A stretch of 12,805 bases of DNA from Verrucomicrobiota bacterium (GTDB lineage: Bacteria; Verrucomicrobiota; Kiritimatiellia; Kiritimatiellales; Tichowtungiaceae). Both the position numbers and the translations under genes were made by a program. The notes beneath the pieces were generated by a model. It saw only the letters and a list, made by a program, of their open reading frames with translations. It was not told where the DNA came from and did no database searches. The stretch is taken from the NCBI GenBank assembly GCA_020853375.1, contig JADYZA010000068.1, positions 1 through 12,805 of the forward strand, written 5' to 3'. Every line of letters starts with the position of its first letter. Position 1 is the stretch's first letter. Positions 4,198 through 12,526 of the stretch are shown piece by piece.

Positions 4198-4220
4198 TTT
4201 TTCCAGATAGTGGAAAATCA
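4195..4220. terminator. hairpin between convergent rimO and prepilin genes
   Basis: An inverted repeat of about 10 base pairs with one bulged T (4202) and a GATAG loop (4206-4210) joins the rimO stop codon (4195-4197) to the complement of the prepilin stop codon (4218-4220). Inner pairs are CCA/TGG, outer pairs TGATTTT/AAAATCA. It is placed where a two-way terminator is needed. No clear T-run follows on either strand, so intrinsic termination is only likely, not shown. Confidence 0.4.
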
Positions 4221-4529
4221 GTAGGTTGCGCTGGTGCCAACTGGATTCAGCGTGATGGTGCTCCCGCCAACAGTCAGTCCCGCCTGATTCGTGATCCCGT
4301 TGCCCATATAGGTCGCAATATTGGTCCAGACGACGGCGGTTCCCGTCGCTTTGTTATTGATGATGGCCCACTGATCTTTAGCGGCATTCACGGAGGCGAC
4401 GTTGACTTCCTGCATATTGTCTTCCGCACTTCTGCGAGCGCCGATGAAAGAGGGAATGCCGATGGCGGCAATCAGGCCAATGATGGCCACGACAATCAGA
4501 ATTTCGACGAGGGTAAACGCTTTTTTCAT
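4218..4529 (-). CDS. type IV prepilin-like protein (103 aa), first copy
   Basis: The 103-residue protein starts MKKAFTLVEILIVV: a short charged leader, the prepilin peptidase site before F5 with E9 (+5) kept, and one hydrophobic helix up to about residue 28 (class III signal). The residue before the cut is Ala, not the usual Gly; Ala is tolerated in some prepilins. There is no cysteine, so the usual disulfide D-loop is absent. The tail GLTVGGSTITLNPVGTSATY resembles that of the prepilin at 6370-6726, so the two are paralogues. It could be a major pilin, a minor pilin, or a GspG-like pseudopilin. The middle (VNAAKDQWAIINN) resembles small prepilin-like proteins of PVC bacteria, from memory. 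AGGAGA at 4536-4541 is a good ribosome binding site 6 nt before the ATG, and a sigma-54-like promoter lies upstream at 4558-4573. The gene stands alone, convergent with rimO and divergent from the GT-C gene. Confidence 0.9.
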   Translation of the reverse strand: MKKAFTLVEILIVVAIIGLIAAIGIPSFIGARRSAEDNMQEVNVASVNAAKDQWAIINNKATGTAVVWTNIATYMGNGITNQAGLTVGGSTITLNPVGTSATY

Positions 4530-4632: not shown

Positions 4633-6339
4633 ATGAAATGGATTTCAAAACGTTTTTTATGGCCGCTCCTGGTGGCGGGATTGGCGGCGCTGTTTTTTCT
4701 ACCGGTTCTGCGGGGCGAATTCCTGCATTGGGATGATTATGCGCTGTATGTTGAAAACCCCTATTATACCGGGCTGGCTTTCGGGAATTGGCGTTGGATG
4801 TGCACAACGTTTCGTTACGGCCATTGGCAACCGCTCACCTGGCTGACCTGTGCGTTGGATTTCAATTTTTGGAAACTGAATGCGTCCGGCTGGCATCTGA
4901 CCAATTTGGGGATTCATGCCATCAACGCCATGCTGGTTTACGGTCTTTGTCTGACCTTTCTTAAAGACAAATCCAGACGCTGTACAGCGGCGCTGGCCGC
5001 GCTGTTCTGGGCGGTTCACCCTTTGCGGGTGGAGGCTGTGTCTTGGCTGGCAACACGCGGTTATCTGCTTTGCACCGCCTTTTGCCTTTTGACCGTTTTG
5101 TTTTATTTGCGAGCGATTGAGCAGAAACGTTACCCGCTGGCGGCGTTACTGTGTTTTGCACTGGCGACTCTCACCAAAGGGATCGGCATGATGCTTCCGC
5201 TGGTATTGCTGTTGCTGGATTGGTTTCCTCTCCGCCGAATCATTTCCATGCGAACGGCATTTCGTTGTGCGATTGAGAAAACCCCGTTTTTCATCCTGTC
5301 ACTGGTGACGGGGATCACCGCCTTTTTGGCCAAGAAAGCCGACGGAGGAATGGCGCCCGTTGCATTATACGGCCCAGTTGAGCGAATCGGACAGGCGGTG
5401 TACGGAGTTTGGTTCTATCTGTTCAAAACCGTCTCGCCACGGAATTTATCGCCGCTTTATGAGAAACATCCGGAGCTTTGGCAGGTGTTGGCCGCTTTGC
5501 TCTTTTTAACAGCGGCGGGCATCATTATTTTTCTGTTCCGGAAAAGGCTTTTTCCAATCATCGGAACTGCAGGCGCTTTTCTACTGCTTATTTTTCCAAT
5601 GCTTGGAATCACGCAAAGTGGTTCACAAATGTTTGCCGACCGCTTTACTTATCTGGCTGCCGTTCCGTTTTCAATTTTTCTGGCCGCCGGGCTGGTGCGG
5701 TTGCAAAAACCAATGCATAGAGCGGTGTGTGGTTTGCTGGCGGTGCTGTTACTCCTATTGGGTGTCCAGTCCGTTGTATATTCCAATGTTTGGAAAACTG
5801 AACTGTCACTTTGGAGCTATGCGGTTACCGTTGACGGCAGTCAGTCGGGTGCGCAAAACAATCTTGGCATTGTACTCATAGGACTCAACGAGTATGAAAA
5901 AGCGCTCGGTTGCTTGGACAAAGCTCTTGCGATGCGTCCGGAATATGCCGACGCCCTGAATAACAGAGCGTTAATAAAATTAAACAAGGGCCAATACGAA
6001 GAAGCCATTCATGATTTGAATATCGCCCTGCCTCAAGGGTTTATGAGGGCGAACGATCGCGCGAAAATGTGGGTCTTGCGGGGATTAGCTCTCGAAGGCA
6101 TGAGCAATAATCCTGCGGCCATTGTCGATTATTCGACCGTAATAGAGCGTCCGGATGTTGACTCAGGCTGTCGCCTGAAAGCGCTGCAGGCCCGCGCCCG
6201 GCTCCGGCTTGCCGCCGATAGAGTTAAGGATGCGGAAACCGATTTGAAGGCCATGCTGGTAACGCCCGATTCTTCCGGAGAATTTCATCGCCGAGCTGAA
6301 GCGGTACTCACTGAGATAAAAAAAATCCCCAGGGAATAA
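4633..6339 (+). CDS. GT-C-type membrane glycosyltransferase-like protein with C-terminal TPR repeats (TMTC-like)
   Basis: The 568-residue protein has many hydrophobic helices in its first about 385 residues and TPR-like repeats after that. Residues typical of GT-C and TMTC-type enzymes are visible: the acidic pair D34-D35 in HWDDYALYVENP in the first outside loop, HWQPLTW at 64-70, HPLRVEAVSWLATRGYL at 129-145, and ADRFTYLA at 335-342, close to the ERYLYLP signature of TMTC proteins. TPR-like units sit near 405-437 (AQNNLGIVLIGLNEYEKALG) and 440-470 (ADALNNRALIKLNKGQYEEA). GT-C enzymes move sugars from lipid carriers to proteins or glycans outside the membrane; TMTC proteins are O-mannosyltransferases in animals. 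The substrate here is unknown. Its place between two prepilin genes suggests pilin glycosylation (inference). It is divergent from the first prepilin gene, and its stop codon lies inside the terminator of the second. The ribosome binding site is weak (CAGG close to the ATG). Confidence 0.8.
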   Translation: MKWISKRFLWPLLVAGLAALFFLPVLRGEFLHWDDYALYVENPYYTGLAFGNWRWMCTTFRYGHWQPLTWLTCALDFNFWKLNASGWHLTNLGIHAINAMLVYGLCLTFLKDKSRRCTAALAALFWAVHPLRVEAVSWLATRGYLLCTAFCLLTVLFYLRAIEQKRYPLAALLCFALATLTKGIGMMLPLVLLLLDWFPLRRIISMRTAFRCAIEKTPFFILSLVTGITAFLAKKADGGMAPVALYGPVERIGQAVYGVWFYLFKTVSPRNLSPLYEKHPELWQVLAALLFLTAAGIIIFLFRKRLFPIIGTAGAFLLLIFPMLGITQSGSQMFADRFTYLAAVPFSIFLAAGLVRLQKPMHRAVCGLLAVLLLLLGVQSVVYSNVWKTELSLWSYAVTVDGSQSGAQNNLGIVLIGLNEYEKALGCLDKALAMRPEYADALNNRALIKLNKGQYEEAIHDLNIALPQGFMRANDRAKMWVLRGLALEGMSNNPAAIVDYSTVIERPDVDSGCRLKALQARARLRLAADRVKDAETDLKAMLVTPDSSGEFHRRAEAVLTEIKKIPRE

Positions 6340-6369: not shown

Positions 6370-6726
6370 TTAGTAGGATGTGGTTGCGCCAACAGTGGCG
6401 CCGATCTGAATGGTCGTTCCGCCAACGGTCAGAGCAGATGTGTCTGTGATCTTCAGCGCGGCCAGCAGGTTCGTGCGGCCAGCTGTGCCGGCTGCGATTG
6501 AGGTGCTGTCATTCGCATCCATTGCGCCGGTAACCGAGCCTGTGGGCAGGGTCAAAACTGCTTTGGCTTTGTTTACTTCAGCAATGTTACGGGCTTTGCT
6601 CTTTTCCTGAGCGTTGCCGTATGCGCCGATGATGGACGGAATACCGATAGCGGCCAACAGACCGATAATGGCTACGACGATCATGATTTCAACCAGTGTG
6701 AACCCTTTTTTATTCATCTTTTTCAT
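6370..6726 (-). CDS. type IV prepilin-like protein (118 aa), second copy
   Basis: The protein begins with a classic class III leader, MKKMNKKG, then FTLVEIMIVVAIIG: Gly before the cut, Phe at +1 and Glu at +5, and a hydrophobic assembly helix to about residue 32. The mature part is about 110 residues with no cysteine, is rich in Ala, Thr and Gly, and ends ALTVGGTTIQIGATVGATTSY (final residues 98-118), like the tail of the prepilin at 4218-4529. It follows pilR on the same strand and has its own terminator, the position of pilA in many pil loci, so it is the better candidate for the main pilin. An inner ATG at 6717 (MNKKG) is an alternative start giving a five-residue leader. AAGG lies about 9 nt before the chosen start, in a very A-rich leader. 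No sigma-54 site with GG-N10-GC spacing was found in the 226 bp upstream. Confidence 0.92.
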   Translation of the reverse strand: MKKMNKKGFTLVEIMIVVAIIGLLAAIGIPSIIGAYGNAQEKSKARNIAEVNKAKAVLTLPTGSVTGAMDANDSTSIAAGTAGRTNLLAALKITDTSALTVGGTTIQIGATVGATTSY

Positions 6727-6952: not shown

Positions 6953-8326
6953 TTATTTTTTTTGGTCAGAGGGCAGTTTGCGGTAGAGGGTGGCTAAGCT
7001 GATACCAAGTTCGCTGGCCGCTTTTTCTTTGTCGCCGTTCATGCTCTCGATGGTGCGTTGCAGGAATTCTTTTTCTTTGTCGTGCAGAAACGCCTTCAGA
7101 GACTTTGCCTTAAACTGTTCGCGACGGCTGGTGATGATACCGGACTTGAGTCCTTCTTCGACGGTTCCAACTATTTTAGCTGGCAGCGTGTCTTTGGTGA
7201 TGTTTCCCTGCGCGAAGGTCAGAGCGTGCAGAATCGCGTTTTCCAGTTCCCGCACATTTCCTGGCCAGTTGTAGTTATCGAGAATACTTTGCGCCTCGTG
7301 GTCGATCTGCGGGAGTTCTGCGCCTGATCCGAGTTCACGCCGCAGAATATGGTCTACCAGCGGCAGAATATCTTCCGGGCGGTTGCGTAGCGGCGGGATA
7401 TCGATACTGATGACGCTGAGGCGGTAGTAAAGGTCTTCGCGGAATTTCCCCTGCTCAATCAGCGTTTCAAGTTTTTCATTCGAGGCCGCAATAATCCGCA
7501 CATCGACTTCCGTGTGATCCGAGCCGCCAACCTTGCGGATTTTCTTATCCTGAAGAACCCGCAACAGCTTGGATTGGATTTCGAGCGGCATGGAGCTGAT
7601 TTCATCTAAGAAAAGGGTTCCACCGTGTGCAGTTTCAAACAGGCCTGCTTTTGTGGCATTAGCGCCGGTGAAAGAACCTTTCACATGCCCGAACATTTCA
7701 GATTCCATCAGTTGGGCGGGCAGGGCGGCGCAGTTGACGGCCATAAAGGTGGCTTCCTTACGTGGACTGTAATGGTGGAGTGCTCTGGCTACCAGTTCTT
7801 TGCCCGTGCCGCTTTCTCCGTAGATTAGCACCGTGGTGGAGGTGGGTGCCACGCGCTCAATCATTCCGCATACTTTGCGCATTCCTTGGCTTTCAGCCAC
7901 GATTCCGCCAAGCTGTGCTTTATGCTCAAGCCGTGCTTTGAGGTCCTTGTTTTCTGAGATGGCGTTGTGGTATTCGAGCGCCCGTTGAACTGTCAGCACC
8001 AGCTCATCCAGCTTGAAAGGTTTTGTGATATAATCAAACGCTCCTTCTTTCATGGCCTCGACGGCGGTGGCCACGGTTCCATAGGCGGTGAGCATGATGA
8101 CACCCATGTCCGGCCATGATGCGGCAGCTTTTCGCAGAAGTTCCATGCCGTTGATCGGAGTCATGTTGATATCCGAGATCATCAGATCGAACTTTTCGGT
8201 CTGGAGTAGTTGCAACGCCTTTTCGCCATTGCTGGCGGGAGTGGCATCATATCCCTGCCCGATAAGGATTTTATTAAGCAGGTTTAGGATGGTTGGCTCG
8301 TCGTCTACGATAAGAATACGCGGCAT
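6953..8326 (-). CDS. pilR: PilR-like sigma-54 dependent response regulator (NtrC family)
   Basis: The 457-residue protein has the three NtrC-family parts. The receiver domain (1-120) has D8/D9, phospho-acceptor D52 in ISDINM, T80 and K102. The AAA+ domain (about 140-375) has Walker A GESGTGKE at 170-177, the sigma-54 contact loop GSFTGA at 217-222 (a variant of GAFTGA with Ser at the second place), Walker B GGTLFLDE at 235-242, and RLSVISIDIPPLRNRPEDI at 302-320. The Fis-type DNA-binding helix-turn-helix is near 432-451 (DKEKAASELGISLATLYRKL). It should activate RpoN promoters when phosphorylated. The start is taken at MPRILIVDDE, where this family begins; a TTG at 8359 in the same frame is possible, but neither has a good ribosome binding site. 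It follows the pilS-like gene after 96 bp and precedes a prepilin gene, the classic pilS-pilR-pilA order. The call of PilR rests on context; other NtrC regulators look alike. Confidence 0.93.
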   Translation of the reverse strand: MPRILIVDDEPTILNLLNKILIGQGYDATPASNGEKALQLLQTEKFDLMISDINMTPINGMELLRKAAASWPDMGVIMLTAYGTVATAVEAMKEGAFDYITKPFKLDELVLTVQRALEYHNAISENKDLKARLEHKAQLGGIVAESQGMRKVCGMIERVAPTSTTVLIYGESGTGKELVARALHHYSPRKEATFMAVNCAALPAQLMESEMFGHVKGSFTGANATKAGLFETAHGGTLFLDEISSMPLEIQSKLLRVLQDKKIRKVGGSDHTEVDVRIIAASNEKLETLIEQGKFREDLYYRLSVISIDIPPLRNRPEDILPLVDHILRRELGSGAELPQIDHEAQSILDNYNWPGNVRELENAILHALTFAQGNITKDTLPAKIVGTVEEGLKSGIITSRREQFKAKSLKAFLHDKEKEFLQRTIESMNGDKEKAASELGISLATLYRKLPSDQKK

Positions 8327-8360: not shown

Positions 8361-8422
8361 GAATAATTATCATTTTCGAGAATATCCGTCTATACATATT
8401 GCTTGGAAACAAAGGCAGGTTG

Positions 8423-9682
8423 TTAACGCCGTTTTGCTTCCTGATCGATATCCATTTGAATTAAATCACGGACATCTTTTGGCGAGAATTCCGCATAATC
8501 GAGAAAGTTTTGGATAACTTTATCCATACGGATCGATTCCATAACAATCTGGTGGCAGAGTTCTTCACGGTCTTTGGCTATGGAAGGCTCGTGATCCTCT
8601 GCGCTCTTGAGGTTAATTTGGAGCAGTTGCACGGCGCCGGAAATGCCGGTGAGCGGTGTGCGGATCTGATGAGCCATCTCTTTTGCCATATTCGCGGCGG
8701 CCTTGATCCTTTCCAGTTGGCGGGTCTGGCTTTGCAATCGCAGGAAATGGGAAAGATCGTTGAAATTTAGAATTCGTGTATCAACCAAGCCGCCGACCGC
8801 AGAATTGGCGTGAGGAACAGCTTCAGAAGGGAGCGTCAGTCGGGCGTCTTCGATGCTAACCGGGAAGACGGTTCCATCCGAGCGTCGGAAATAATCGGAT
8901 GCGCCACGCAGATCGGTGTCGCCATTTTTAATTTCTGAAGGTTTTAGATGGATTGTGGAGAGAGTTTTTCCGATCAGTTCGTCTTCGTCGCGACTTAACA
9001 GAATGCAGGCTCGGTCGTTGGACATCAGGATTCGGTCATCTGAGTCGAGTAGCAGTAGACCCGTTTTCACGTTTTTAAAAATAATCTTCGTGATGTCGCG
9101 GAACTGCTTTTCTTTCTTGCTGATGTAGTCACACCGGCGTGAAACATACGCACTGGCGATGCCGAAGAAGATAAAGATGGCGATACGCAGCACCATTGCT
9201 CCGCCAGTGTCGATAATCTTCGGCGTGACGGCGGAGGACGGATATTGCACCAGAATATCCCGAGACATCAGCAGAATGACCAGCGTGTACGAAATAATGG
9301 CGAGGATGGTGATTTGTATCGTCTGCTTGATGGGCAGGATGATCCCGGCCGATAAAATAATCAGAGGGTAGAGCAGAATTAGAAAATCGTTTTGCATTCC
9401 GCCTGCGAAATAAACCAGTCCAGACACGAACACCAGGTCGACAAGAAACTGCAACGGGGCCAGCCGCCGCATCCGGTCCTGATTACGCATCCACAACGAG
9501 TAGGGAATGGTGATGATATAGGCAAACGCAATGAAGGCATAAAACGCGATACTGTCCTGCTTCAGCACAAAAGAGAGAACGATCAAAAATCCGCTGATCG
9601 TGGCTAAACGTCCGCCGAGCATTCCCATCATTGTGGTCCATGCTACCGCGCGAACCTCGTCTTCCTGCCCGATTTTTTTCAT
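8423..9682 (-). CDS. pilS: PilS-like membrane sensor with HisKA domain but no ATPase domain
   Basis: The 419-residue protein has about six hydrophobic helices (near 26-40, 46-64, 78-94, 100-118, 121-140 and 160-180), a PAS-like region (about 195-315) and a histidine dimerisation domain (about 325-398), as in PilS. The H-box is MAHQIRTPLTGISGA with H338, but the acidic residue usually next to the histidine (HE or HD) is Q339; T342 at H+4 is kept. After the second helix (IRMDKVIQNFLDYAEF) the protein ends within about 20 residues, so there is no N, G1, F or G2 box and no ATPase domain. Only 96 bp separate it from pilR, too little for one. It could not phosphorylate itself alone. It may act as a phosphatase or scaffold, or accept phosphate from another kinase (inference). 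ATG at 9682 has AGGA about 9 nt upstream; pilC ends 13 bp before it. Confidence 0.85.
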   Translation of the reverse strand: MKKIGQEDEVRAVAWTTMMGMLGGRLATISGFLIVLSFVLKQDSIAFYAFIAFAYIITIPYSLWMRNQDRMRRLAPLQFLVDLVFVSGLVYFAGGMQNDFLILLYPLIILSAGIILPIKQTIQITILAIISYTLVILLMSRDILVQYPSSAVTPKIIDTGGAMVLRIAIFIFFGIASAYVSRRCDYISKKEKQFRDITKIIFKNVKTGLLLLDSDDRILMSNDRACILLSRDEDELIGKTLSTIHLKPSEIKNGDTDLRGASDYFRRSDGTVFPVSIEDARLTLPSEAVPHANSAVGGLVDTRILNFNDLSHFLRLQSQTRQLERIKAAANMAKEMAHQIRTPLTGISGAVQLLQINLKSAEDHEPSIAKDREELCHQIVMESIRMDKVIQNFLDYAEFSPKDVRDLIQMDIDQEAKRR

Positions 9683-9695
9683 AACAGGATCCTTT

Positions 9696-10778
9696 TCACA
9701 TTACCACTTCGGTCATCTTGAAAATCGGCATAAACATGGCCAGAACAATTCCGCCGATCATCACCCCGATGACCACCATCAGAAGCGGTTCGAGCATGGA
9801 TGTGAGGCCTTCGAGCATCGTGTCGACTTCCTCCTGATAAAACTCGGCCAGCTTGCTCAGCATCTCCTCCATTTTTCCGGTCTGTTCGCCAGCGGAGAGC
9901 ATGTGAATCAGCATACTGGGGAACTCTTTGTTGGTTTTGAGGGTGGCCGAAACCGTGTTTCCCTGTTCCACGCTGGCGCGTGCGTCCAGAATGGCTTTAC
10001 CGATCACTTTATTTCCGGTTGCTACGCCGACGATGGTCATCGCCTGAATGATAGGCACGCCACTGGAAATCAGTTGGGCGAAGGTCGACGAAAACCGAGT
10101 GATCGCGATTTTTCGGGCTAGTTTTCCGAGCAGTGGAAACCGTAGTCGGAGCAGGTCGGCGTTGTAGCCGCCTTTTTCGGTTTGGACATAACGCTTCACG
10201 CTGTAGACCGTTGCGGCTATGGTGGCCAGCACAATGTACCAGTAGTCCCGTATAAAATTGCTCATATCCAGCAACATCTGCGTCGGTTTGGGGAGTTCGG
10301 CTCCGAATCCGGAGAACATTTTCGCGAATGTGGGCACGATAAAGATAATCAGACAGGTTGAGATGATCAGGGCAACGCAGATCACGACCGTCGGATACAT
10401 CATGGCGGATTTAACCTTGGCTCGCAACCGATTGGATGCTTCAAGAAAGGATGCCACCCGTTCAGATGTTTCTGCCAGCATACCGCCGGTTTCACCTGCA
10501 CGCATCATATTCACATAGAGCTCATCAAACACTTGCGGATACTCTTCAAGCGAGTCGGAATACATTGCGCCACTTTCGACGTTGGTCCGAACTCCCTTGA
10601 GAACCGCTTGAAAATGTTTGTTTGGAGTCTGCTCTTCAAGCGCGAGGATCGACTGCACCAGCGGCATGCCGGACGACAACATTGCCGCCAGCTGACGAGT
10701 GAATAAAGGAAGCTCTTTGAGCCGAATACTCCTCGCGCCACTGATTCTTTTTTTGACGATTTTTTTTTCAGCTGCCAT
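9696..10778 (-). CDS. pilC: type IV pilus inner-membrane platform protein PilC
   Basis: The 360-residue protein belongs to the T2SSF/GspF family and has two copies of the domain, about residues 25-148 and 228-350. The first begins FTRQLAAMLSSGMPLVQSI and the second FSSTFAQLISSGVPIIQAM; both carry the later motif AGE (MMRAGETGGML, MLSAGEQTGKM). Three membrane helices are seen, near 128-152, 177-193 and 330-352. It sits in the inner membrane as the base on which the PilB ATPase drives pilin assembly. It is about 40 residues shorter than typical PilC, missing the N-terminal extension. It begins 16 bp after pilB and ends 13 bp before the pilS-like gene, so it is in one transcript with them. GspF of a type II secretion system is the alternative, but with pilS and pilR next to it PilC is more likely. 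Confidence 0.93.
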   Translation of the reverse strand: MAAEKKIVKKRISGARSIRLKELPLFTRQLAAMLSSGMPLVQSILALEEQTPNKHFQAVLKGVRTNVESGAMYSDSLEEYPQVFDELYVNMMRAGETGGMLAETSERVASFLEASNRLRAKVKSAMMYPTVVICVALIISTCLIIFIVPTFAKMFSGFGAELPKPTQMLLDMSNFIRDYWYIVLATIAATVYSVKRYVQTEKGGYNADLLRLRFPLLGKLARKIAITRFSSTFAQLISSGVPIIQAMTIVGVATGNKVIGKAILDARASVEQGNTVSATLKTNKEFPSMLIHMLSAGEQTGKMEEMLSKLAEFYQEEVDTMLEGLTSMLEPLLMVVIGVMIGGIVLAMFMPIFKMTEVVM

Positions 10779-10794
10779 ACAACGGATTCCCGGA

Positions 10795-12504
10795 TTATTC
10801 AGTCGTTACTCGTAAGATTTCATCAATCGTTGTCAGTCCGTCTCGCACTCTGGAGAGCCCGGTTTCGCGCAAGGTCTTCATACCGCAACGCACGGCGACC
10901 TCGCGCAGAGCACTCGCCTCTGACGTTTCAAGAATCTTTGCGCGAAGCTCATCATTAAGCAGGAGAATTTCCATAATCGCGCCGCGACCTTTATATCCCA
11001 GTCCGCTGCACTTTGGGCACCCTTTGGCGTTGAAGAAGGTAACGTCTTTAAATTGATCGGGGTCGAGGCGGTTGAACCGGAGGGTTTTTTCTGGAATCTC
11101 AATGGCCTGCTTGCAGAACGGACAGAGCTTACGGTAAAGACGTTGCGCTTGAGTCATTACCAGTGAGGAGGAAAGCATGAACGGCTCGATGCCCATATAC
11201 GCCATGCGGGCGATTGCTCCTGCGGCATCGTTGGTGTGCAGGGTGCTTATTACCAAATGCCCCGTGAGCGCCGCCTGTACTGCGATGGAGGCCGTCTCGT
11301 TGTCGCGGATTTCACCGATCATTACGATATCCGGGTCCTGACGGAGGATGGAGCGCAGGCCGGCGGCGAAGGTCAGTCCGACTTCTGGGCGGGCCTGTAC
11401 TTGGTTGATGCCACCGAGCTGATACTCCACCGGATCCTCGACGGTGACGATGTTTACATCTTCCTGGTTGAGTTCTTGAAGGGCGGAATAAAGCGTCGTG
11501 GTTTTTCCGGAGCCGGTCGGACCGGTCACCAGCAACATTCCGTGCGGTTTCGCAATGGCGAACTTTAGATCTTCCAGCGCTTTCTGTTCCAAGCCGAGCG
11601 ACTCCAGATTGGGAGCCAAAGCGGTTTTGTCCAGAATACGCATTACAACTTTTTCGCCGTGCACGGTGGGAAGATAGCTCACGCGCAGGTCAACCTCTTT
11701 GCCCAGTGCTTTGATCTTGAAACGTCCGTCCTGAGGGATTCGCCGTTCGGCGATGTCAAGGTTGGACATGATCTTGATGCGCGAGGAAATGGCTGACTGC
11801 ACGCTTTTTGGTGGGCTGGGGTTTTCATAAAGGATGCCGTCAACACGGTAGCGCAGGCGGATTTTATGTTCCATTGGTTCAATATGAATATCGCTGGCGT
11901 GCTTACGGAGGGCTTCAATCAGGATCGAATTCACAATACGCACAACTGGGGCATCGGCCGCGCTTTCCAGCATTTCTTCAAGATTATCGGCACTGGTTGC
12001 ATCTCGGCCAATTTCGAGTTCACTGTCGTCCTCGATATCTTTAAGGATTTCCTCCAGCCCGCTTGCGCCTTCTTTGGCTGCGATGTCCAACACGCCGAGA
12101 ACATCTTTTACATCCGCGATAACTGGGGAAATCTGATAGTCGATTTGTGTTTTTAGCTGCTCGATTCCCATGATGTTGAAAGGATCTGCCACGGCAACCG
12201 TCAGCAACTTGCCGGTTTTGCAAAGGGGTACCATTTTTAATTGAGCCCATACGGCTTTCGGCAACAGGTCCACCAGTGAACGATCGACGACGAACTCTTC
12301 GAGGCTAATCGGCGTCATTTCAAGGTATTCTGCTTTAGTCAGCAACATGACGGATGCAGGCACAGCCCCCTGATGGACAAGAATTTCTTCAATCGGCGCG
12401 CCGCTCTTATCGGCCTCCTCACGGGCCGCAATCAATGCGCTTGTCGGCACGGTGAAGCGTTCGGAGAGGACTTCCAGCAGGGTTCTGTAGGCTTTGTCAT
12501 TCAT
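10795..12504 (-). CDS. pilB: type IV pilus extension ATPase PilB
   Basis: The 569-residue protein has the GspE/PilB plan. An N-terminal MshEN-like domain covers about 1-140, followed by SDIHIEP at 204-210. Walker A is GPTGSGKTT at 328-336, the Asp box TVEDPVEY at 354-361, Walker B DPDIVMIGEIRD at 390-401, and the His box GHLVISTLHTNDA at 415-427. A zinc site is formed by C461, C464 (CPFC) and C496, C499 (CPKC). It powers pilus extension at the inner membrane together with PilC. The frame is open to a TTG at 12582 and an ATG at 12573, but the family start matches MNDKAYRTLL at 12504, and the candidate sigma-54 promoter at 12527-12542 would put transcription start near 12517, downstream of the longer starts. 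No clear ribosome binding site is seen in that short leader. It is the first gene of the pilB-pilC-pilS-pilR run. A type II secretion GspE is the alternative. Confidence 0.94.
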   Translation of the reverse strand: MNDKAYRTLLEVLSERFTVPTSALIAAREEADKSGAPIEEILVHQGAVPASVMLLTKAEYLEMTPISLEEFVVDRSLVDLLPKAVWAQLKMVPLCKTGKLLTVAVADPFNIMGIEQLKTQIDYQISPVIADVKDVLGVLDIAAKEGASGLEEILKDIEDDSELEIGRDATSADNLEEMLESAADAPVVRIVNSILIEALRKHASDIHIEPMEHKIRLRYRVDGILYENPSPPKSVQSAISSRIKIMSNLDIAERRIPQDGRFKIKALGKEVDLRVSYLPTVHGEKVVMRILDKTALAPNLESLGLEQKALEDLKFAIAKPHGMLLVTGPTGSGKTTTLYSALQELNQEDVNIVTVEDPVEYQLGGINQVQARPEVGLTFAAGLRSILRQDPDIVMIGEIRDNETASIAVQAALTGHLVISTLHTNDAAGAIARMAYMGIEPFMLSSSLVMTQAQRLYRKLCPFCKQAIEIPEKTLRFNRLDPDQFKDVTFFNAKGCPKCSGLGYKGRGAIMEILLLNDELRAKILETSEASALREVAVRCGMKTLRETGLSRVRDGLTTIDEILRVTTE

Positions 12505-12526
12505 AAAATTACTGCCGCAGTTGTTA

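Follow-up and report, generated by a model that had tools for sequence, protein, structure and literature searches.

A pilus gene cluster with a PilS-like sensor lacking an ATPase domain

The window analysed here, the whole stretch of 12,805 bases, is a complete contig of a draft genome (G000; 230 contigs, 87.9% complete), and the closest named relatives of this DNA are MAGs from the order Kiritimatiellales. The minus strand of the window carries pilB, pilC, a pilS-like gene that we call pilS', and pilR, in that order, together with two pilin genes:

10795..12510, minus strand: pilB (Pfam T2SSE, MshEN)
9696..10778, minus strand: pilC (Pfam T2SSF; conserved order pilB-pilC-pilS'-pilR)
8423..9682, minus strand: pilS', HATPase-less PilS-like gene, 419 aa plus stop (ORF with ATG start; Pfam; orthologues)
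9113..9625, minus strand: membrane part of PilS', residues about 20-190 (6TM_PilS match; conservation of R25)
8813..9085, minus strand: PAS-like region of PilS', residues about 200-290 (weak Pfam PAS matches at 202-281)
8450..8710, minus strand: DHp (HisKA) hairpin and conserved tail of PilS', residues 325-411 (Pfam HisKA 331-397; dN/dS)
8657..8680, minus strand: H-box of PilS', with E335 (H-3), H338, Q339 (H+1) and T342 (H+4) (translation; alignment counts)
8367-8390, minus strand: conserved element GACGNNNATTCTCGAAAATGATAA between pilS' and pilR (single match per genome searched)
6953..8326, minus strand: pilR, NtrC-type response regulator, 457 aa from the ATG (Pfam Response_reg, Sigma54_activat, HTH_8; alignment)
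6370..6726, minus strand: type IV pilin-like gene (Pfam N_methyl; pilin-helix E5 and P22 read in the translation)
4218..4529, minus strand: second type IV pilin-like gene (Pfam N_methyl)

The plus-strand gene at 4633-6339, flanked by the two pilin genes, encodes 568 aa. Pfam finds TPR repeats in the product, whose N-terminal half seems to span the membrane; by eye, it may be a TPR protein resembling a glycosyltransferase. pilR adjoins pilS' in the window, whereas in one other genome (G057) it lies about 10 kb away. A search of the window for sigma-54 promoters gave 6 matches against 7.4 expected, and thus no signal.

A preliminary description of this DNA had read pilS' as encoding a PilS-like sensor that keeps its membrane part, PAS-like region and HisKA helices, stops about 20 residues past the hairpin and 96 bp before pilR, has no ATPase domain, and carries HQ in place of HE with Thr at H+4. 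All of these observations held up. Pfam places HisKA (PF00512) at residues 331-397 (E 1.1e-10, 41.8 bits against a cut-off of 26.9) and 6TM_PilS at 44-140 (E 1.6e-5, 25.1 bits, just below the cut-off of 27), the PAS matches being weak; about 20 residues remain beyond the hairpin, and 96 bp separate the stop codon from the PilR ATG. The codon of H338 (8671-8669) is followed by that of Q339 (8668-8666), with T342 at H+4. Pfam found no HATPase domain in the protein, and a genome-wide search with PF02518 gave no match on the window contig and 19 elsewhere in the same genome. The proposed profile check agreed: a HATPase profile derived from the C-terminal parts of full-length PilS proteins matched no window frame of at least 60 aa at E <= 0.1 and matched all four control loci, and a frameshifted or overlapping HATPase downstream of pilS' was rejected on this result.

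HATPase-less PilS proteins form a clade

The same HATPase-less protein occurs in 30 of the 43 genomes of the order (E <= 1e-20, 36-87% identity), namely in 14 of 14 from the window's genus, where G003 contributes a contig-end fragment only, and in 16 of 29 from the other family of the order (f2). In 13 of the 43, some of which are incomplete genomes, the search met no intact gene, so PilS' is not essential. Across the class, 34 of 345 genomes match PilS' at E <= 1e-40; a phylum sample yielded 22 of 387 at E <= 1e-30, of which 19 are strong (E 2.7e-58 or better) and three weak (G062, G080, G108), the latter probably other kinases. Five of the strong phylum matches (G422, G469, G492, G551, G553) come from outside the class, and all eight PilS' copies in these genomes, one of them cut by a contig end, lack a HATPase domain. 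G422 has three HATPase-less PilS-like genes (L189-L191): one is followed by a pilR-like gene, one lies just 3' of pilB-pilC, and one has a strongly diverged H-box.

A first protein search returned 245 matches, and none of the 120 listed carries PF02518. In a second, the best 120 of 328 matches comprised 34 proteins without HATPase and then 86 comparison PilS, with an E-value jump from 4.5e-49 to 2.8e-28 between them. PF02518 is present in 84 of these 86, which are mostly 484-585 aa long, the exceptions P0211 and P0219 being short. The HATPase-less clade is represented below by 150 cluster representatives of 395-452 aa, including the window's own PilS'; the clade includes the named species Pontiella desulfatans, P. 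sulfatireligans and Kiritimatiella glycovorans. In a tree built with the H column left out, a single branch (SH-aLRT 100) splits 64 HATPase-less from 17 full-length rows.

No HATPase domain was seen in any intact orthologue from the order, the class or the five genomes of other phylum classes. With the whole clade, as far as seen, lacking it, the CA (HATPase) domain would most simply have been lost once, long ago, before the clade diversified. A draft so fragmented and incomplete might raise the suspicion that an assembly error, a frameshift or a recent deletion had affected this one genome, and the preliminary description had named orthologues with an intact ATPase domain as the sign of such an event. 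None was seen. The same architecture recurs through most of the order, including few-contig genomes (G009, G007, G024, G025), and in named Pontiella and Kiritimatiella species; this refutes the explanation, to which we give practically no credence.

A second, full-length PilS was not seen in the class either, as judged from 6TM_PilS matches in the 345 genomes. The profile scores above its cut-off in 14 of them, 12 being clade members with frames of 425-477 aa, and the five longer frames that were read (L140, L141, L161, L166, L167) have H-boxes of other kinds (VAHEVNNP, HDLKAPF or HQLKAPF); further matches, in frames of 492-694 aa, lie in G117, G320 and G323, with a second one in G325. Databases already hold the clade's proteins, for example as 'histidine kinase dimerization/phospho-acceptor domain-containing protein', and among the open-access papers listed by literature searches we found no description of a natural PilS without HATPase. 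Going by their domains, the normal route of autophosphorylation is closed to the proteins of this lineage that are annotated as 'histidine kinase PilS'.

Drift and constraint in the H-box

All 86 comparison PilS have the histidine, E at H+1 and N at H+4. Among the 150 clade representatives the histidine is kept in 142, and H+1 is Q in 82, E in 57, H in 6, D in 3, K in 1 and S in 1, leaving the acid in 60. H+4 is T in 118, N in 21, S in 6, P in 2, and V, A or H in 1 each (T or N in 139; T, N or S in 145), and H-3 is E in 143, D in 3, R in 2, and T or G in 1 each (acid in 146). With duplicates included, 177 of 181 clade rows have an acid at H-3 versus 0 of 86 comparison rows; by helix geometry, this position should lie on the same helix face as H+4. 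The share of Q at H+1 is inflated because 84 of the 150 representatives are of the window's own genus type. The other 66 have E in 57, Q in 5, D in 3 and S in 1, so that outside this type the acid linked to kinase activity is mostly kept within the class. The eight phylum-level copies all keep the histidine and have S (4), V (2) or E (2) at H+1, N at H+4 in all eight, and E at H-3 in seven.

The preliminary description had taken the missing domain and the Gln as changes that point the same way. Loss of the kinase with a remaining phosphatase is indeed the best supported outcome; the two changes, however, are separate events of different ages, the domain loss being clade-wide and the Gln genus-typical. 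HATPase-less orthologues in f2 have E or D at H+1, which rules out HQ as a cause or partner of the domain loss. From the alignment, the change from HE to HQ is a later one typical of the window's genus, and another Q arose separately elsewhere. FleS/FlrB-type kinases carry HQ and are active.

Loss of the histidine (to Q, K, N or D) falls at seven separate places on the tree when changes are kept fewest, some of them on weakly supported branches and one row, P0150, being long-branched. Five of the seven losses sit in otherwise well-kept DHp hairpins. Counting duplicates, 8 of 11 His-less rows have 0-3 deviations at 22 conserved DHp positions, and P0145, P0148 and P0150 have 5, 6 and 10; the close rows P0145 and P0148 have lost H+4 as well as the histidine. 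The contig-end fragment of G003, which is absent from the tree, has Tyr for His and is possibly a pseudogene.

Selection on PilS' and its predicted contact with pilin

Within the genus, the median dN/dS of the whole protein is 0.108 (Nei-Gojobori; dS defined for 70 of 78 pairs), and by region it is 0.090 for the membrane part (71 pairs), 0.142 for the PAS region (65) and 0.054 for the DHp (53), values that are rough because dS is near saturation (median pS 0.66). They indicate that PilS' is under purifying selection, most of all on the DHp. The helix-1 arginine R25 (codon 9608-9610) is invariant, being present in 179 of 179 clade rows and in all 84 full-length PilS with a letter there, and we infer that it corresponds to R24 of Pseudomonas aeruginosa PilS. 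In that species, PilS R24 and pilin E5 and P22 are reported to be important for the contact between PilS and pilin (PMC6528607), and the window's pilins have E5 and P22.

PilR is retained more widely than its sensor

PilR matches at E <= 1e-100 in 41 of the 43 genomes of the order, a wider spread than that of the sensor; in G030, G033, G034 and G039 the sole match is a 43-44% paralogue. The phosphorylation pocket (D8, D9, D52, T80, K102) is intact in all 37 rows of an alignment that left out G026 and G035, 27 of these rows being different and five coming from genomes without intact pilS. With its pocket intact though its own kinase is gone, PilR seems still to be phosphorylated, and sigma-54 output is still possible because rpoN is present in 42 of the 43 genomes.

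Seven genomes that have a close PilR yielded no intact PilS' (G014, G015, G020, G023, G026, G029, G035). In the six of these that were read, pilC runs into pilR across a gap of 168-475 bp, and five of the six gaps match pilS', that of G026 giving no match. The gap of G020 holds a clear pilS' match to both ends; those of G014, G015, G023 (weak) and G029 hold short C-terminal pieces, partly overlapping the pilR start region, and G035 likewise has a C-terminal piece. For the loss of pilS in f2, parsimony counts four changes, and the comparison of one event with several gave an AU p of 0.0585.

The element between the two genes, GACGNNNATTCTCGAAAATGATAA, has exactly one match (0 mismatches) in each of three genus genomes, always upstream of pilR, and its reversed control has 0. 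Its core can be made out at 11 of the 14 loci of the genus, at one of them with a mismatch; the other three were covered for the first 200 bases past the stop only. It is a probable pilR promoter or operator, which would uncouple pilR from pilS'. The two genes are separated in the window's genus and in G037 (L047); in four genomes of the other family (G036, G024, G025, G019; L033, L099, L174, L175) the end of pilS' overlaps the start of pilR, the last pilS' codons also holding the pilR start region. Extra PilR-like regulators, 45-77% identical, occur in G010 (C165), G013 (C20 and C1), G004 (C241) and G003 (C72, C48, C59), and the one such locus that was read (L100) has no PilS alongside.

Search for a partner ATPase or a new PilR kinase

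If PilS' is kinase-dead, PilR would, according to the preliminary description, depend on another kinase or on a separate ATPase subunit, and an orphan HATPase_c gene was to be looked for. PF02518 matches number 19 for G000, 22 for G007 and 34 for G009. G007, which is 95% complete and whose PilS' is 87% identical to the window's, has no short HATPase ORF, all 22 matches lying in frames of at least 398 aa. Five of these proteins were examined with Pfam: HisKA or HisKA_3 is present in three, the fourth is a double ATPase unlike a kinase, and the fifth (414 aa) has PAS and HATPase alone by Pfam and an HD-type box by eye. Short HATPase ORFs do occur in G000 (L016, G000:C163:3712-4014, 203 aa, no DHp) and G009 (G009:C1:2611104-2611406, 198 aa), and are presumably of a type from hydrogenase operons; they are not supported as partners of PilS', G007 having none. 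Contig ends truncate three further short HATPase frames of G000 (L009, L011, L012). All five genomes searched share a HATPase_c_2 protein (546-552 aa), which was rejected as a kinase half, its G007 member (L176) reading by eye as a receiver, a SpoIIE-type phosphatase and an ATPase.

The pil regions fetched from eight genomes (G009, G024, G025, G019, G057, G082, G059, G291) contain no HATPase beyond a chance-level match (E 0.015) inside pilC of G009, and no separate conserved ATPase was found beside the pilS' cluster. The ATPase-subunit half of the earlier suggestion has thus lost ground. The other half, another kinase, is supported because several relatives without intact pilS keep the PilR phosphorylation pocket. 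HATPase kinases are encoded some 5 kb away from pilS' in G007 (L098:746-3117, accompanied by a 205-aa receiver protein), G008 (L081:12482-13252) and G012 (L085:12398-13246), and in G422, with its three pilS' copies, a 1047-aa HATPase kinase (L191:4892-8032) comes directly 3' of one copy. The G007 and G422 kinases are complete, with their own HDFNN box. These kinases are candidate leads for the one feeding PilR. Prediction of the PilR kinase from docking residues gave nothing convincing.

Discussion

Why keep a sensor that has lost its kinase half? The reading we favour, with somewhat more confidence than doubt and on sequence comparison, is that PilS' is a natural kinase-dead off-switch, which dephosphorylates PilR~P without a CA domain or holds it, while PilR gets its phosphate from elsewhere. 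Loss of the CA domain has left the membrane part, the PAS region and the DHp hairpin for dimerization and docking, under purifying selection beside an intact PilR. The DHp would still bind PilR, and PilS' would serve the PilS/PilR circuit as its off-arm only, taking the phosphate off PilR~P or holding PilR~P with no need of ATP. The membrane part would control this arm, and its signal could plausibly be free pilin, as it is in P. aeruginosa; PilR would receive its phosphate from another kinase or a small phosphodonor. With the kinase duty gone, the H+1 acid and then the histidine would have been free to drift, and some lineages would later have lost the pilS' gene.

Experiments on the same sensor family bear on this reading. 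In NtrB and EnvZ the DHp is described as a sufficient phosphatase in vivo; only the kinase requires the H+1 acid, only the phosphatase requires T or N at H+4, and NtrB E140Q stays phosphatase-competent (PMC3510030). The same source reports that the CA domain greatly increases phosphatase activity, which counts against an off-switch without one. In HK853 the DHp alone is a phosphatase and the histidine takes part, H260A having diminished activity (PMC5727384). Further points against the off-switch are the H+1 acid that most class members outside the window's genus type retain, the loss of H+4 in P0145 and P0148, and the absence of an intact gene from 13 of the 43 order genomes as searched. In P. 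aeruginosa the phosphatase motif of PilS turns PilR off, N323A being constitutively active (PMC11960060), and the PilS phosphatase is likewise reported to shut PilR off (PMC6528607). Taken together, these experiments make PilS' probably a phosphatase or holder of PilR, and by analogy it would most likely sense pilin in the membrane and dephosphorylate or hold PilR while something else phosphorylates it. The preliminary description had left phosphatase and phosphate-relay functions side by side; the phosphatase fits the behaviour of the NtrB DHp and of E140Q, whereas a relay is disfavoured by the loss of the histidine at seven places. Because the histidine takes part in the HK853 phosphatase reaction, the His-less lineages may have little phosphatase activity, and would be weak unless other residues help. 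This leads to a more specific and rather doubtful proposal, that the clade evolved an ATP-free PilR phosphatase with a chemistry of its own, in which the new H-3 acid (E335) acts together with T/N342 and makes the CA domain, the H+1 acid and the phospho-His dispensable.

The repeated loss of the histidine would also suit a decaying remnant or a purely structural binder, in which PilS' sequesters PilR without catalysis or is itself being lost, and so would the six genomes without intact pilS' between pilC and pilR, five with pieces in the gap, the many changes in the long-branched P0150 and the Tyr of the G003 fragment. Such decay is hard to square with purifying selection that is strongest on the DHp and with a PilS' in every genome of the genus (one a fragment); H+4 and H-3 are moreover constrained while H+1 drifts, which argues against random decay, and we regard this as a minority reading. 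A split kinase, in which a separate ATPase or the CA domain of a complete kinase phosphorylates H338 and PilS' passes the phosphate to PilR, has a precedent in the phosphorylation of CheA3 by CheA4 (PMC3591291). It would account for the histidine kept in most representatives and in all phylum-level homologues, and the short HATPase-only ORFs of G000 and G009 and the HATPase kinases near pilS' in G007, G008, G012 and G422 could be taken as its other half. The seven separate losses of the histidine speak against it, as do G007, which has no short HATPase ORF and where three of the five proteins scanned with Pfam carry HisKA or HisKA_3, and the eight pil regions; since these regions hold no HATPase match save the chance-level one in pilC, a split kinase is improbable, trans-phosphorylation of PilS' by a complete kinase being a possible form of it.

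The DHp hairpin and the histidine, kept in most members, are equally what a histidine phosphotransferase would use to shuttle phosphate from another receiver to (or from) PilR, and ChpT, a known phosphotransferase, is reported to resemble histidine kinases (PMC3433190). We think this very unlikely for PilS', given the same seven losses and the retained PilS-type membrane and PAS input, which would be unusual for a relay shuttle. A phosphorelay and a separate ATPase subunit are both disfavoured because the histidine was lost at seven places and no convincing ATPase partner was found.

PilS' has several close counterparts among known systems. It resembles the PilS of the PilS/PilR systems of P. 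aeruginosa, Geobacter and others in lying beside pilR, pilB and pilC, in a membrane part with an invariant helix-1 Arg, and in its PAS region, HisKA hairpin and docking residues like ISGxxQLL. It differs from them in that its clade has no HATPase, does not require the H+1 acid, sometimes loses the histidine, and has the H-3 acid that no comparison PilS shows. Like the isolated DHp of NtrB, EnvZ and HK853, PilS' is a DHp without CA in which the H+4 residue is kept, and NtrB E140Q is the same change as HE to HQ; unlike those engineered fragments, it is a natural, conserved membrane protein. With the CheA3/CheA4 pair of Rhodobacter sphaeroides it would share the type of a phospho-acceptor without an ATPase of its own and, CheA3-like, may also be a phosphatase, whereas no convincing ATPase partner was found for PilS', its histidine is dispensable in several lineages, and in place of a P1 phospho-acceptor domain it has a HisKA hairpin. 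DivL, which we take to be the repurposed pseudo-histidine kinase of Caulobacter, keeps a CA-type domain; PilS' appears to resemble DivL as a kinase relative without ordinary kinase output, and differs from it in having no CA-type domain. Use of a kinase relative without ordinary kinase output has been reported for that Caulobacter protein (PMC4211667).

In most HisKA sensors two activities oppose each other, and it is a standing question which one conveys the signal. Nature has set up an experiment in a clade that is without the kinase half and in which the pocket of the regulator is kept: such a clade puts to the test whether PilS signalling can run on the phosphatase arm alone and which residues this arm needs, and also how a regulator changes kinases. 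If the proposal for E335 were true, a family of 'kinases' would have become a dedicated membrane-signal-gated phosphatase, with its regulator handed to other kinases.
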